The notes under the pieces were generated by a model. That model ran no database searches. It saw nothing but the letters and a program-made list of their open reading frames with translations, and was not told the DNA's origin. Positions 14,801 through 21,575 of a stretch of DNA of 64,000 bases are shown here, one piece after another. This stretch comes from Bacteroidota bacterium (GTDB taxonomy: Bacteria > Bacteroidota > Bacteroidia > 2-12-FULL-35-15). How positions within the stretch are numbered: the stretch's first letter is position 1; each line of letters begins with the position of its first letter. The position numbers were made by a program, and so were the translations under genes. Where the stretch lies: positions 124,001-188,000 of the forward strand of contig JAQZBR010000004.1 in the NCBI GenBank assembly GCA_029237775.1, given 5' to 3'.

Positions 14801-16195
14801 CTATTTACTTAACTGATTTTTTATTTTCTCTACAAACGTATCTATATCGCCTGCACCCATTGTAAGGAGAACATCAACCTTTTTTTTCGCAAGCGTGTTT
14901 AGCAATTCATTTTTATCGCAGATCATTTTCGAACTACTTTTCATTTTATCAAGCAACATTTGAGAATCAACACCATCAATTGGAAGTTCGCGGGCGGGGT
15001 AGATCTCCATTAAAATACATTCATCAAGCAGATCCAGGCTTTGTGCAAATTCGTCAGCGAAATCGCGCGTGCGGGAAAATAGATGTGGTTGAAAAATCCC
15101 TGTGATCTTCTTCCCGGGATACATTTCTCTCGCGGAATTTATTGTCGCTTTTAATTCCTCCGGGTGATGGGCATAATCGTCAATATATACAAGTGACTCT
15201 GTCTTGATCTGATAATCAAATCTTCTTTTAACACCGCCAAAAGTCCGCATTGCATCTTTAATGAAAACATCCGCTATATGAAGTTCGCATGCAATAGCGG
15301 CAGCAGCGACAGAATTTTCAACATTGTGCTTACCGGGCAATCCCAGGGTAACATTTTTTAAAATTCCTTTCGGAGTTTTTATAGAGTAATGGTAAAAACC
15401 GTTTTCGATCCTGATATCCATTGCGTGATAATCTGCATAGACATCGTCCACCGAATAAGTAATTGCGGGAAGTGCAGAACGAACTTTTCCTGCAATATTT
15501 TTTTTAACGATCAGCTTCTTACGAACAAGATCAGCAAACATGGAGAATGATTCTTCCACATGTGTTTTGTCTCCGTAAATATCAAGGTGATCTGCATCAA
15601 CAGAAGTAATAACAGCAATTTCCGGATGCAAGGTTAAAAATGAACGATCATATTCATCTGCTTCCACAACCACATATCCTGCATCAGCATGAGCTTCCTT
15701 TAACTTGCTGCTCAACAACAAATTCGTTTTATAATTCTGTGTGATACCGCCCAGAAAAGCAGAAGGATCCAATCCTGCAGTTTTAAGAATATGTGCTACA
15801 AGTGATGATGTTGTTGTTTTACCATGCGTCCCGGCCACAGCGATCGTACGTGCAGATTCAGTAATTAACCCTAATACCTCAGCCCTTTTTTTAATGTTAA
15901 ACCCATTACTATTAAAAAAAACATATTCGCTGTGGCTTTTCGGAACAGCAGGTGTATAAACAACAAGTATTTTTGATTTGTCGGGTGAATTCAACGATCT
16001 GAATTCCGGCTGAACAAGTTCTAAATTATCCTCAAAATGTATACTGATTCCTTCAGCAATCAATTCACCCGTCAGCTTGGTTGAGGTCTTATCATAACCA
16101 CTCACGTTTTTCCCCATAGCGTTGAAATAGCGCGCAAGTGCGCTCATTCCGATGCCACCTATTCCGAGGAAATATATGTGAGTTATATCTTTCAT
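14801..16195 (-). CDS. murC: UDP-N-acetylmuramate--L-alanine ligase MurC
   Basis: First Mur ligase; it adds L-Ala to UDP-MurNAc using ATP. The 464-residue protein starts with the Rossmann-like FLGIGGIGMSALARYF, then the ATP loop AVAGTHGKTTTSS, the central motif SVDADHLDIYGD, and the C-terminal ligase-domain motifs RRFDYQ and DDYAHHPEE typical of MurC. Full length and intact. It lies in the dcw run 14 bp after murG, with ftsQ 2 bp downstream. Confidence 0.97.
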   Translation of the reverse strand: MKDITHIYFLGIGGIGMSALARYFNAMGKNVSGYDKTSTKLTGELIAEGISIHFEDNLELVQPEFRSLNSPDKSKILVVYTPAVPKSHSEYVFFNSNGFNIKKRAEVLGLITESARTIAVAGTHGKTTTSSLVAHILKTAGLDPSAFLGGITQNYKTNLLLSSKLKEAHADAGYVVVEADEYDRSFLTLHPEIAVITSVDADHLDIYGDKTHVEESFSMFADLVRKKLIVKKNIAGKVRSALPAITYSVDDVYADYHAMDIRIENGFYHYSIKTPKGILKNVTLGLPGKHNVENSVAAAAIACELHIADVFIKDAMRTFGGVKRRFDYQIKTESLVYIDDYAHHPEELKATINSAREMYPGKKITGIFQPHLFSRTRDFADEFAQSLDLLDECILMEIYPARELPIDGVDSQMLLDKMKSSSKMICDKNELLNTLAKKKVDVLLTMGAGDIDTFVEKIKNQLSK

Positions 16196-16209: not shown

Positions 16210-17319
16210 CTATTTTCTATTATTGATTAAGCTTATAACTTCATTTGCAATTACCTTCGCTGAATCAGGCAAAGCTAGTCGTGCAATATTTTCTGATAAT
16301 TTAGAACATGCAGCTTCATCTTTGATAAGCTTCACCGCATGTTCTTTTAACCTCTCTCTTGCCTCGCTGTCTTTAATTATAATAGCAGCATTATAGGTCA
16401 CCAATGCCATCGCATTTTTAGTCTGATGATCTTCCGCCACATTCGGTGAAGGAATCAGAATTGTGGGCTTATGAACAAGGCACAATTCTGAAACGGAGCT
16501 TGCACCGGCTCGTGAAATTACTATATCAGACACCGCATAAGCCAGATCCATCTTCTGAATGAAATCAAAAGCTTTTATCCCTCTATCCTCATACTTTGCT
16601 GCGTTTTGTTTGGCCGTTTCAAAATATCCTTTACCTGTTTGCCAAACCAGTTGAATGTTGTTATTTACGAATTCCTCAAGGCATAAAGCAATACTTTCAT
16701 TTATCGTTCTGGCCCCGAGACTACCCCCTATCACTAGAATTATTTTTTTGTTTGGGTCAAGTCCGAAAAGCTCAAGGCCTCTTTCGCGTTTTCCTTCAAG
16801 ACTCAGGATATCCTGACGAACAGGATTACCGGTCATAATGATCTTTTCTTTTGGAAAAAACTTCTCCATTCCACTATAAGCGACACAGATCCTGTCAACT
16901 TTTTTAGCTAATATTTTATTCGTGATACCTGCATAAGAATTTTGCTCCTGGATCAGGGTTGGCACTCCTTGCCTTGCCGCAACGCTGAGCATTGGACCAC
17001 TTGCGAACCCCCCTGTGCCTATTACTGCATCCGGTTTAAAATCATCAAGAAGCTTTCTTGCTTTATGCAGGCTACTCATAACTTTAAATGGAAAAGCAAG
17101 ATTAGACAAAGTGAATTTCCTTTGGAATCCGGAGATCCACAACCCTTCAATCTTATAACCCGCAGCAGGAACTTTTTCCATTTCCATTTTACCTTCAGCG
17201 CCAACAAAAAGAAATTCTGTATCAGGCCGTAAAACTTTAATTGCATTTGCAATAGAGATTGCGGGAAAAATATGTCCTCCTGTTCCTCCACCACTAACTA
17301 TGATCTTAAGCGGCCGCAA
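16210..17319 (-). CDS. murG: Lipid II synthase MurG, TTG start inside ftsW
   Basis: Peripheral inner-membrane GT28 transferase that adds GlcNAc to lipid I, forming lipid II. The glycine loop IIVSGGGTGGHIFPAISIAN opens the protein, and the C-terminal donor-binding motif includes ISRAGASSVSELCLVHKPTI (seen) and EDHQTKNA. An ATG at 17361 lies 54 bp inside ftsW and adds 14 unlike residues. I prefer TTG 17319 (369 residues): it puts the glycine loop at the usual distance from the start and follows a strong AGGAGG 5 bp upstream, rare in this phylum. It then overlaps the ftsW end by 14 bp. Confidence 0.94.
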   Translation of the reverse strand: MRPLKIIVSGGGTGGHIFPAISIANAIKVLRPDTEFLFVGAEGKMEMEKVPAAGYKIEGLWISGFQRKFTLSNLAFPFKVMSSLHKARKLLDDFKPDAVIGTGGFASGPMLSVAARQGVPTLIQEQNSYAGITNKILAKKVDRICVAYSGMEKFFPKEKIIMTGNPVRQDILSLEGKRERGLELFGLDPNKKIILVIGGSLGARTINESIALCLEEFVNNNIQLVWQTGKGYFETAKQNAAKYEDRGIKAFDFIQKMDLAYAVSDIVISRAGASSVSELCLVHKPTILIPSPNVAEDHQTKNAMALVTYNAAIIIKDSEARERLKEHAVKLIKDEAACSKLSENIARLALPDSAKVIANEVISLINNRK

Positions 17320-18457
17320 GTGAACCTCCTTCCTCTTTAATTTCTGATTCCCTGCTAACACTCAAAATAATTCCGATAGCAATACTTGTGAACCAGATCG
17401 ATGTACCACCCATGCTTACCAAAGGTAAAGGCTGTCCGGTAACCGGGAATAAATTAACCGCGACAGCCATATTGATCATAGCCTGAAATACAAGGCTGAA
17501 CGTTAGTCCGATTGCGAGCAGGCTACCGAATGTTTTTTCGCTCTTGTTGGCGATCCTGATCCCACGAAATAATAAAACCACATATAAAAAAACTATAATA
17601 ATGGCTGTTATCAGTCCCCACTCTTCAATTACAATTGCATAAATAAAATCCGAAGAGGCCTGCGGAAGAAAATTTCGCTGAATGCTATTACCAGGACCTT
17701 TACCCATCACGCCACCCGTAGCTATAGCGATCTTAGCCTGCTCAGCCTGGAAATTACTTTCGCTGTCACCGTTTTTAAAATTTTCAATTCTGGCTTTCCA
17801 GGTTTCACCACGTTTGATCACGTTTGGGAAATTGAATATCATGACTATCAGCAATGCTGCGAAGACAATCCCTGAGCCTATCAGCATGAGAAGATGCTTT
17901 GAATTCATTCTTCCAACGAACATCAACACCAGACATGTTAAGAACAATAATGCAGCCGTTGAAAAATTCGCAGGTAGGATCAGTGCACATATAACCGCGA
18001 CAGGCCCCACAATTGGAATGAATGCCTGTTTAAAATCTTTGATGACATCTTGTTTAATGGAAAGCATTCGCGCAACATAAGTTATCAATGCGAGCTTGGC
18101 GAAGTCTGAAGTCTGAAATGTGAGTGAAGTTCCCGGAATTGCTAACCACCGGCTCGCATCCCCCGCGCTAACACCTTTGAGTAAAGTATATAAAAGTAGT
18201 GGGGCAGCCAGTATTATCGCAATTTGCGAAATGCGTGAAAAATAGGTGTATTTCACTTTATGGATCAGGTACATTAAAAAGATCCCTGAACCAACAATAA
18301 AAATATGCTTGATAAGATAAGATGCAGTATCTCCATTCTTATACCTGTAAGCCAGAGCAACAACCGAACTGTAAACCACGAGTATAGACAATAGGGAAAG
18401 CAACAGGACTACTGTCCAGATGACCTTATCACCTTTTATGTATTTTAATAGATTCAT
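17306..18457 (-). CDS. ftsW: SEDS peptidoglycan polymerase FtsW
   Basis: Polytopic SEDS-family glycosyltransferase that polymerises lipid II at the septum together with the class B PBP. The 383-residue protein has about ten hydrophobic segments, the motif AGDASRWLAIPG, the conserved region around GEQ-like ATGGVMGKGPGNSIQRNFLP, and the C-terminal signature VTGQPLPLVSMGGTS. Its ATG overlaps the stop of the upstream MurD-C-like gene by one base (TAATG), so the two are probably translationally coupled. Its own end overlaps murG. Confidence 0.96.
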   Translation of the reverse strand: MNLLKYIKGDKVIWTVVLLLSLLSILVVYSSVVALAYRYKNGDTASYLIKHIFIVGSGIFLMYLIHKVKYTYFSRISQIAIILAAPLLLYTLLKGVSAGDASRWLAIPGTSLTFQTSDFAKLALITYVARMLSIKQDVIKDFKQAFIPIVGPVAVICALILPANFSTAALLFLTCLVLMFVGRMNSKHLLMLIGSGIVFAALLIVMIFNFPNVIKRGETWKARIENFKNGDSESNFQAEQAKIAIATGGVMGKGPGNSIQRNFLPQASSDFIYAIVIEEWGLITAIIIVFLYVVLLFRGIRIANKSEKTFGSLLAIGLTFSLVFQAMINMAVAVNLFPVTGQPLPLVSMGGTSIWFTSIAIGIILSVSRESEIKEEGGSLAAA

Positions 18458-18948
18458 TATGCACTTAACCCTTTTACAATCTCTTTGAATTCTCTTCCCC
18501 GCTGTCTGTAGGTATCTTTCCCTTTCTGATCCTGACAGGCCGGGGCAAAAAGAACTGCATCACCCGATTTCGAATACGCTTTTGCAATCAACACCGCCTC
18601 TTTAATATTATCAGCCATTACAAACAACATTGAATGTCCTTTATAATGTTTAAGAATATTGTTACTGCAACTCCCTAAATATATTACAGCAACAACCTTC
18701 ATTTCTATCTGTTCTTTAAGCAAAGAATAATCATTTGAGGAGTCATCACCACCTGTTATCAGGATAACAGATGTTTCAATTGCGGAAAGAGATCTTAAGA
18801 CTGCATTAACAGTCATCGATTGAGAATCGTTAATATAGGCGGTGCCGTCAACCTGATCAACGAATTCCATTTGATGCTCGTCCATAGAAGAAACAACAAA
18901 AGTTCTTGACAATTTTGTTTCTCTGCTTTTGATTTTATTCAGATCCAT
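18457..18948 (-). CDS. Stand-alone MurD C-terminal-domain-like protein, probable pseudoenzyme
   Basis: A 163-residue protein (ATG 18948) that aligns without gaps to the C-terminal ligase domain of the MurD encoded just upstream. Shared landmarks are H.(M/L)E.V..V.G, INDS, VILI.GG, NDYS.L, .LG, SPAC/APAC and RG..F. By hand count 30 of the first 68 aligned positions are identical. There is no central ATPase domain or P-loop. Positions I recall as substrate or ATP contacts in E. coli MurD are changed: Arg302 to Gln, Lys319 to Gln, Thr321 to Met, Lys348 to Ser, Ser415 to Asp. An upstream ATG at 19032 would overlap murD. It lies 19 bp after murD and its TAA overlaps the ftsW ATG by one base. It is an intact frame, so I infer a retained non-catalytic duplicate, perhaps regulatory or scaffolding. 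Confidence 0.85.
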   Translation of the reverse strand: MDLNKIKSRETKLSRTFVVSSMDEHQMEFVDQVDGTAYINDSQSMTVNAVLRSLSAIETSVILITGGDDSSNDYSLLKEQIEMKVVAVIYLGSCSNNILKHYKGHSMLFVMADNIKEAVLIAKAYSKSGDAVLFAPACQDQKGKDTYRQRGREFKEIVKGLSA

Positions 18949-18967: not shown

Positions 18968-20308
18968 TTATAATGCTCTAACTGCTTGTTTAAACTGAGT
19001 TCCGCGATCCTCATAGTTTTCAAACATATCAAAGCTGGCGCATGCAGGTGATAACAACACAGTATCGCCCTTCTTACCTATTTTGTATGATTGTGCAACA
19101 GCCTCTTTTGCTGATTTAGCTTCAAGAATTGTTTCCACCATACCACCAAAAGCTTTGATGATCTTCTTATTGTCTGTCCCCAGGCAAATAATAGCTTTAA
19201 CTTTTGCTTTCACAAGATCATTAAGCATTGAGTAATCATTTCCCTTATCAACACCTCCAAGGATAAGGATCACAGGATTATTCATACTTTCAAGAGCATA
19301 CCATGTTGAATTAACATTAGTTGCTTTTGAATCATTGATGAATTCAATTCCATGTACATTTCCAACCACCTCAAGGCGGTGATCGATGTTATGGAAATCG
19401 GAAAGACTCTCGCGAATGGTCTCTTTCCTCATTTCAACTAATTTACCTGTAACCCCTGCGGCCATGGAGTTATAGATATTGTGTTTTCCTTGTAATGCTA
19501 GTTCCTGAATTGTCATAAATAAGGGATTTGTGTTGTTTGTGTTGATTATTAGTTGATTGTTGTCTTTTAAGTATGCTCCTGTTTCTAATTCTTGTTTAAT
19601 TGAGATCGGATATTGTTGGGCTTTGATCTCCTTACTCTGCATTGTTTTCATTGTCACATCATCATCTATACAGTAAATGAATGCGTCCTTCTCTGTCTGG
19701 TTCTGTATGATCCTGAACTTTGACTCAGCATAGTTCTCCAGCTTATAATCATATCTGTCGAGATGATCCGGAGTGATATTCAGCAGCACCGCTATATCTG
19801 CTTTAAAATCATACATTCCGTCTAACTGAAAACTGCTTAACTCCAGCACGTAATAATCAAAATCATTCTCCGCCACCTGCATCGCGAAGCTCTTCCCTAC
19901 ATTACCGCCAAGCCCTACATTCAAACCGCCCTTCTTCATCATGTGATAGGTCAGAAGCGTAGTTGTTGTTTTTCCGTTACTTCCCGTTATGCAAATCATT
20001 TTTGCATTCGTATACCGGCCTGCAAATTCAATTTCCGAAATCACCTTTATTCCTTTTGCGTGGAGTGCTTTAATCAGCTCTGCCTTATCAGGTATTCCAG
20101 GGCTCTTTACCACTTCATCTGCGTTAAGAATAAGAGATTCGGTATGTTTCTCCTCTTCCCACTCAATTCCATTTTTTGAAAGAACGTTCTTGTATTTATC
20201 TTTTAATTTTCCTTTATCAGAAAGAAAGACCTCAAACCCTTTTTTCTTCGCAAGCACCGCGGTGCCCACTCCACTTTCTCCACCCCCAAGTATTACCAGG
20301 CGTTTCAT
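18968..20308 (-). CDS. murD: UDP-N-acetylmuramoyl-L-alanine--D-glutamate ligase MurD
   Basis: Cytoplasmic Mur ligase that adds D-Glu to UDP-MurNAc-L-Ala. Domains in order: the Rossmann-like N-terminus (LVILGGGESGVGTAVLA), the ATPase centre with CITGSNGKTTTT (about residue 110) and NITPDHLDRYD, and the C-terminal ligase domain with HRLEVV, INDSKATN and LSPACASFDMF. All expected catalytic motifs are present, in contrast to the truncated homologue just downstream. The 446-residue length is normal. It starts 2 bp after the mraY stop. Confidence 0.97.
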   Translation of the reverse strand: MKRLVILGGGESGVGTAVLAKKKGFEVFLSDKGKLKDKYKNVLSKNGIEWEEEKHTESLILNADEVVKSPGIPDKAELIKALHAKGIKVISEIEFAGRYTNAKMICITGSNGKTTTTLLTYHMMKKGGLNVGLGGNVGKSFAMQVAENDFDYYVLELSSFQLDGMYDFKADIAVLLNITPDHLDRYDYKLENYAESKFRIIQNQTEKDAFIYCIDDDVTMKTMQSKEIKAQQYPISIKQELETGAYLKDNNQLIINTNNTNPLFMTIQELALQGKHNIYNSMAAGVTGKLVEMRKETIRESLSDFHNIDHRLEVVGNVHGIEFINDSKATNVNSTWYALESMNNPVILILGGVDKGNDYSMLNDLVKAKVKAIICLGTDNKKIIKAFGGMVETILEAKSAKEAVAQSYKIGKKGDTVLLSPACASFDMFENYEDRGTQFKQAVRAL

Positions 20309-20309
20309 C

Positions 20310-21575
20310 TTATCTTAGTTTCAAAGTCACAATAGTTAATACTGCTAACATGATCCCGATGATCCAGAACCGAGAAACAATTTTAGATTCGTGCATTCCT
20401 AACTTTTGATAATGATGATGGAGAGGAGCCATTTTAAACAGGCGGTTCTCACGTGCATATTCAATTCCGAATTTTTTCTTCATGCGTTTGAAATACGCAA
20501 CCTGCATCATCACCGATAAATTTTCAACCAGGAATATTCCGCAAAGGATCGGGATCAATAATTCTTTACGTATTGCAATCGCGAACACTGCTATGATTCC
20601 GCCAAGCGCGAGACTTCCTGTATCACCCATGAACACTTGTGCAGGAAAGGAGTTATACCAAAGAAAGCCTACACATGCTCCAACGAAGGCCGCAATGAAA
20701 ATTACCAGCTCTCCTGAATTTGGTATGTACATTATATTCAGATAATCTGCGAAGACATTGTTACCGGATACATAAGCGAGAATCCCTAACACAACTCCAA
20801 TGATCGCGGAAGTTCCCGTAGCCAGGCCGTCTATACCGTCTGTTATATTCGCACCATTCGAAACCGCGGTGACAATCAGGATCACAAATGGAATGAAGAT
20901 CAGCCACGCCCATTGCCTGTAATTATCTCCCAGGAACGACAGCAATGAGGAATAATCAAATTCGTTATTTTTCACAAAAGGAATAGTTGTCTTCATTGAT
21001 TTCGTCTCAACCGTTGAATACAAAGGCAAATGAGGTGTCTGCTCGGAACCATTCACGACTTCAACAGGAAAGGTGATCTGGCCGCTTGAAATTTTTTCTT
21101 TAACAACTACACCATCATGGAAATAAAGAGTAGTACCTACAATGAGGCCGATGCCTATCTGACCTGCCACTTTAAATAATCCGTGAAGGCCTTTTTTATC
21201 TTTCTTAAATACTTTAATGTAATCATCGATGAAACCAATCGCACCGAGCCATATTGTTGAAACAAGCATCAGAATGATGTAAACGTTATGAAGCTTTGCA
21301 AATAAAATTGTCGGGATAAAAATCGCGGAAAGTATGATCAAACCACCCATTGTCGGAGTTCCTTTTTTCTCCATCTGGCCTTGCAAACCAAGATCACGAA
21401 CTGTTTCACCCACTTGTTTCCTGTGCAGTAAACCGATGATACGCTTACCGAAAAGAAGAGAGATGATCAGGGAAACAATAAGAGCCATTGCAGCACGAAA
21501 AGAAATGTACTGGAATACACCTGCACCCGGAAAATCAAATTGCTTGTCTAAAAAGTCGAATAGGTAGTAGAACAT
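20310..21575 (-). CDS. mraY: Phospho-N-acetylmuramoyl-pentapeptide transferase MraY
   Basis: Integral membrane enzyme that transfers phospho-MurNAc-pentapeptide to undecaprenyl phosphate, making lipid I. The 421-residue protein has about ten membrane segments and the catalytic motifs [41 protein letters not shown] and the histidine motif APLHHHYQ. An insertion of about 60 residues (about 155-220), facing the periplasm if topology is standard, lengthens it relative to E. coli (360); I recall this as usual in Bacteroidota. Tightly packed between murE and murD. Confidence 0.97.

Follow-up and report, generated by a model that had tools for sequence, protein, structure and literature searches.

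The essential Mur ligases are a textbook case among enzymes. One of their relatives, the MurE-like protein PAP11, is a subunit of the plastid RNA polymerase, for which solved structures exist. PAP11 provides a precedent for a Mur ligase relative retained as a structural component, although it is related to another ligase, is a long multi-domain protein and belongs to another complex. Here we describe a gene, designated X, that lies between murD and ftsW in the dcw cluster of a Bacteroidota bacterium (assembly GCA_029237775.1, contig JAQZBR010000004.1, positions 124,001 to 188,000; this whole stretch of 64,000 nucleotides is referred to as the window). It is virtually certain that X encodes a stand-alone paralogue of the MurD C-terminal domain and that this paralogue is under selection.

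The closest described system is MurD itself. In the E. coli enzyme, the numbering of which is used below for pocket and core residues, the C-terminal domain (residues 299-437) binds D-glutamate (D-Glu), and D-Glu mimetics are contacted by Lys348, Thr321, Ser415 and Phe422 (PMC3527612). This domain swings between an open and a closed position, with Arg302 serving as the handle that closes it via ADP (PMC4816537). X resembles the MurD C-domain (PF02875) in its homology, gap-free alignment and predicted fold, and in keeping H301, E304, N316, S318, P411, R425, G426 and F429. It differs from MurD in standing alone, in having no domain for binding UDP-N-acetylmuramic acid (UDP-MurNAc) or ATP, and in having lost catalytic and D-Glu residues to a varying degree.

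Two further systems invite comparison. MurT, which acts with GatD in lipid II amidation, is a Mur-ligase descendant that became a partner subunit, and its C-domain fold matches that of X (Z ~12.8); however, MurT keeps an ATP-binding central domain and X is without one. The second is the MurD2/MurL system of the Xanthomonas type (PMC8788868), which bears on one group of relatives (the G316 group) where X is found in the dcw cluster and a MurD2-like ligase is encoded elsewhere. X is not MurD2 but the occupant of the old murD position in that group, and the window copy departs from MurD2 in being a single domain with Ser at position 348, with murD and ftsW as its neighbours and no MurL. The sequence-only reading that first drew attention to X knew of no described protein of this form. 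A search of the open-access literature, subscription journals being outside its scope, likewise found no stand-alone or truncated MurD, no Mur pseudoenzyme and no lineage lacking murC and murD. We thus found no precedent for a MurD C-domain that exists alone, is under selection across many families and outlives MurD. X points to a role of this domain beyond catalysis, by which the long-discussed link between the cytoplasmic Mur enzymes and the membrane or divisome steps would become directly testable by means of a small soluble protein.

Identity and predicted fold of X

X (18457..18948, minus strand, 163 amino acids) is an intact gene, read from 18948 to 18457 with no internal stop, and its identification draws on alignment, profiles, residues and predicted fold. 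Residues 24-161 align without a gap with residues 309-446 of the adjacent MurD, the source domain of X, at 38% identity over 138 residues, with a score of 251 compared with a maximum of 63 among 200 shuffles. Such an alignment, with 30 of its first 68 positions identical, had been reported by eye in the sequence-only reading, and our recount gave approximately 29-30 of 68. The MurD profile TIGR01087 matched X at 1.3e-31, covering only the C-domain part (profile positions 303-440), and the 110.2 bits obtained fall below its curated cut-off of 211.95 bits for a whole MurD protein. Against PF02875 the window copy scored 24.1 bits, short of the gathering score of 28.4, and 55 of the 56 members of the X family matched this domain at E up to 0.01. 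The C-domain was the sole match within the 163 amino acids, with neither the ATP-binding central domain (PF08245), whose absence had been claimed earlier, nor the N-terminal UDP-binding domain detected. X alone cannot ligate, since the domains that bind ATP and UDP-MurNAc are absent.

An AlphaFold2 model of the window copy, built on a 56-row alignment, reached a predicted local distance difference test (pLDDT) value of 83 and a predicted template modeling (pTM) score of 0.81, with a folded part at about residues 22-162 and a disordered N-terminus (residues 1-16). Its best structural matches were MurD C-domains (Z ~23, 1.8-2.5 Å over 140-149 residues), compared with Z values of 12-14 for MurC, MurE and MurT, and X is thus predicted to adopt the fold of a Mur ligase C-terminal domain.

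Conserved core and variable pocket

The window copy of X carries R302Q, K319Q, T321M, N322T, K348S and S415D and retains D317. All five residues on which a pseudoenzyme had been proposed from sequence (Arg302, Lys319, Thr321, Lys348 and Ser415) are therefore replaced in the window, by Q, Q, M, S and D, respectively, which sets this copy apart from a MurD ligase. As a general trait, on the other hand, pocket loss did not hold up, since it is lineage-specific, and in several relatives R302, D317, K319, T321, K348 and S415 are all, or almost all, still present. When weighted by family, H301, E304, N316, P411, R425 and G426 are retained in 100% of X and S318, F429, V433 and S410 in 94-98%. The corresponding values are ~85% for S415 and Tyr/Phe422, ~60% for each of R302, K319 and T321, 28% for N322, 24% for G349, 20% for N350 and 16% for K348. 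Different lineages have lost different subsets of the pocket, the window copy more than any other, and essentially the whole pocket is retained in X of family code f12 and of G323, and nearly so in G317, G350 and G358. Since the losses differ in this way and some lineages keep the pocket, the common denominator across X is the fold and the hinge region rather than the active site.

These residues bear on the possibility that X uses the former D-Glu pocket to bind D-Glu or a UDP-MurNAc-dipeptide and thereby informs the wall machinery of the supply of precursors. Such a role would suit the full or nearly full pockets of the five groups just named, the f12 copy being also under tighter constraint than any other protein compared in that cluster, and the frequent retention of S415 and Tyr/Phe422, positions that touch D-Glu mimetics in the E. 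coli enzyme (PMC3527612). However, if sensing were a conserved role the pocket should have been preserved, and K348 is absent from 84% of X and T321 and R302 from ~40% (family-weighted), while the window copy has lost S415, K348, T321 and N322 together. We consider ligand sensing an unlikely explanation for the family.

Selection on X

The ratio of nonsynonymous to synonymous divergence (dN/dS), calculated pairwise by the Nei-Gojobori method, was about 0.01-0.25 for X over all groups tested, exact ratios being rough as many synonymous distances are near saturation. In the window's genus it was 0.04-0.20 for X compared with 0.02-0.05 for the MurD C-domain; X gave 0.03-0.05 in f4, about 0.1 in f26 and 0.03-0.2 in a clade without MurD. 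In f12 (loci L056, L059 and L075) the value was 0.011-0.016, rising to at most 0.025 when a fourth genome was included, and X was there the most constrained protein compared, tighter than MurD (0.08-0.15; its C-domain 0.11-0.16), FtsW (0.03-0.05) and MraY (0.02-0.03). Differences between the window copy and those of congeners fall at 0.60-0.66 of third but 0.25-0.30 of second codon positions, with no stops.

The strongest case for X as a decaying, non-functional duplicate, or as one under too little constraint for a selected role, is that it is patchy within the genus, where a remnant in G018 shows that decay occurs, that it evolves faster than MurD in most families, and that the window copy has lost more pocket residues than any other. 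Against this, dN/dS is far under 1 in every group tested, X persists across at least 16 families, and its frame is open in about 50 loci with only the one true remnant, whereas random mutation at 0.2-0.4 per site would leave a mean of 4-6 stops in a neutral copy. The ratio near 1 and the broken frames by which decay was to be recognized were thus not seen, apart from that single remnant in a relative. We reject the decaying-copy explanation on dN/dS and intact frames, and give it very little chance; the earlier view of X as a retained duplicate agrees with the purifying selection observed.

Distribution and losses

Within the window's genus, X lies between murD and ftsW in 8 of 25 genomes. In the class sample, at least two MurD C-domain matches were found in 64 of 296 genomes, belonging to 19 family codes by our count, and the order murD-X-ftsW was seen in every cluster read, in 16 family codes. 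The search of other dcw clusters that had been proposed thus found X at this site in no fewer than 16 family-level groups, a spread that rules out a local or recent duplicate. Outside the class, 89 genomes of the same phylum contained no stand-alone copy, one apparent second match being a fragment at a contig edge, and a scan of viral contigs found no relatives of X.

The window's lineage is sister, within the genus, to two X-negative genomes (G018 and G009). What remains of X in G018 is a decayed piece of its end between murD and ftsW (L017, 1918-2054, plus strand), and the loss there was therefore recent; among the other X-negative congeners no clear remnant was found. Losses of X across the class are many. 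Separately, one f4 genome (G027) has a further, more diverged MurD-C-like open reading frame (ORF) of 179 amino acids outside the dcw cluster, beside unrelated genes (L033, 2783-3322, plus strand).

X in lineages without MurD

The sequence-only reading had linked X to MurD, a linkage that proved not to be required. In G317 (L092) and G316 (L152) the gene order is mraY-X-ftsW, murD being missing, and neither assembly contains a MurD above the curated cut-off; wherever X persists without a dcw murD, it lies beside ftsW. Among the relatives of G317, one MurD-C ORF was found, but no MurD of full length, in most of the group, namely G348-G351, G353 and G355-G365, whose completeness is not stated, though two of them (G359 and G365) are single-contig assemblies; G352 and G354 have neither a MurD nor an X match. 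murC is also missing from the clusters read in this group, and a search of 13 of its genomes gave no MurC above the cut-off, whereas sister genomes have it. The dcw loci lacking both genes are L171, L172, L173 and L176-L180 (in G365, G359, G361, G349, G350, G364, G356 and G351) and L092 (in G317). This clade, which probably belongs to the Bacteroidota, has MurE, MurF, glutamate racemase (MurI), MraY and MurG, whereas genome-wide searches found neither MurC nor MurD, which raises the question of how L-Ala and D-Glu enter its stem peptide.

A split Mur ligase, in which X would supply the C-terminal part to a central domain made by another gene, is a very improbable reading. The copies of f12 and G323 do keep every C-domain residue listed, but genomes of the class with X have a full-length MurD beside it. 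In five MurD-less genomes, moreover, the Mur_ligase_M proteins are MurE, MurF and Mpl-like, in most with a fourth short one (408 amino acids, FolC-like by size) and in G351 with one additional large one, and all are long enough to have their own C-terminal part. With no separate MurD central domain in these genomes, we rejected a split ligase.

The G316 group presents a different situation. In its relatives G318, G319, G321 and G323 the dcw cluster contains the C-domain only and a full-length MurD is encoded elsewhere (loci L187-L190: G318, G321 at L188, G323 at L189, and G319), with Lys348 changed to Arg and Lys319 to Ile. In the two genomes tested, G321 and G323, this gene adjoins a homologue of the epimerase MurL (1e-71 and 1e-78, under the cut-off of a model that is Xanthomonadales-specific). 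Since the residues specific to MurD2 include an Arg at position 348 (PMC8788868), these genomes, relatives of a Bacteroidetes metagenome-assembled genome, look like MurD2/MurL users, and this phylum is not listed in the distribution given in that study.

A further explanation is that X regulates MurD, the free C-domain docking on the central domain or at a contact between MurD molecules or Mur ligases and competing with MurD's own C-domain. X is adjacent to and co-directional with murD in most genomes and retains the hinge region (H301-E304) and the domain core, and the swing of the MurD C-domain with its Arg302 handle is known (PMC4816537). However, that handle is lost in many copies, including that of the window, and X is kept under constraint in the clade without MurD and MurC, its two single-contig assemblies included, as well as where a MurD2-like enzyme is encoded elsewhere. 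The MurD partner MigC maps to MurD residues 53-103 and not to the C-domain (PMC12208494), and therefore lends no support to a docking site there. A strict MurD-subunit role is hard to square with persistence without MurD, and regulation of MurD seems to us improbable. Because the domain outlives MurD in two lineages, neither decay nor a plain role as a MurD subunit accounts for X.

Origin of X

In a tree of C-domains, all 43 X sequences fell on one side of a branch opposite 53 MurD sequences in 84% of bootstraps, with weak support (81/44), the deep branching being drawn from 140-163 columns. Resolution dropped when copies from lineages lacking a dcw MurD were added; in that tree, with long-branch rows and a MurD2-like outgroup, the X, N and S groups were not separated. 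A tree constrained to hold all stand-alone copies as one clade opposite MurD scored 1.56 log-likelihood units above the free search (p value of the approximately unbiased test, p-AU, 0.53). By inspection, most copies begin slightly upstream of RKExIRESLSDF, a MurD motif located towards the end of the central domain. The best-scoring reading, which we infer rather than regard as proven, is that a single ancient duplication would lie behind X.

Proposed function

We propose that X persists as a folded protein without catalytic function, which would most likely serve as an adaptor or regulator where precursor synthesis reaches the membrane (MraY, MurG and FtsW), using the old surfaces of the MurD domain and not its active site. 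Its partners would probably be among its constant neighbours MraY, MurG and FtsW, and binding of D-Glu or a precursor could be an additional possibility in lineages that keep the pocket. Mur enzymes are reported to be scaffolded on MurG, with MurD bound by it (PMC6420597), and we infer a scaffold involving FtsW or MurG from the position and persistence of X. For this statement as a whole, role and partners included, we would put the chances slightly below even. It is also conceivable, if somewhat doubtful, that the X family constitutes a MurD-independent, non-catalytic part of the lipid II/FtsW machinery in Bacteroidota, kept where MurD and even MurC have been discarded.

Several observations weigh against the adaptor proposal. 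No lineage-wide partner of X emerged, and inheritance would be enough to keep it next to ftsW. X is also dispensable, being missing from most congeners and decayed in G018. Furthermore, the single origin rests on those 140-163 columns, support being low (30/43 to 81/44), and the copies in MurD-less clades could be separate truncations.

Genomic context in the window

All genes of the cluster named here lie on the minus strand. The full-length murD (18968..20308, 446 amino acids) has every key C-domain residue, and its stop is 19 bp from the start of X. Downstream, the TAA of X shares one base with the ATG of ftsW (17306..18457) in the sequence TAATG. Both features had been described in the sequence-only reading and are seen in the window sequence; the tight coupling to ftsW drawn from them does not hold as a general rule, relatives having gaps of up to about 250 bp between X and ftsW. 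Tight coupling to ftsW as the function of X was rejected, the overlap not being conserved among relatives. The remaining genes are mraY (20310..21575), which lies directly upstream of X in lineages without a dcw murD, murG (16210..17361), which served as a reference in the cluster comparison, and murC (14801..16195), which is missing along with murD in the G317/G365 clade. Finally, a full-length MurD of f9 (L032, 3692-5245, minus strand) appears in the alignment to have Lys348 replaced by His and Ala414 by Lys, positions at which its relatives have the usual residues.
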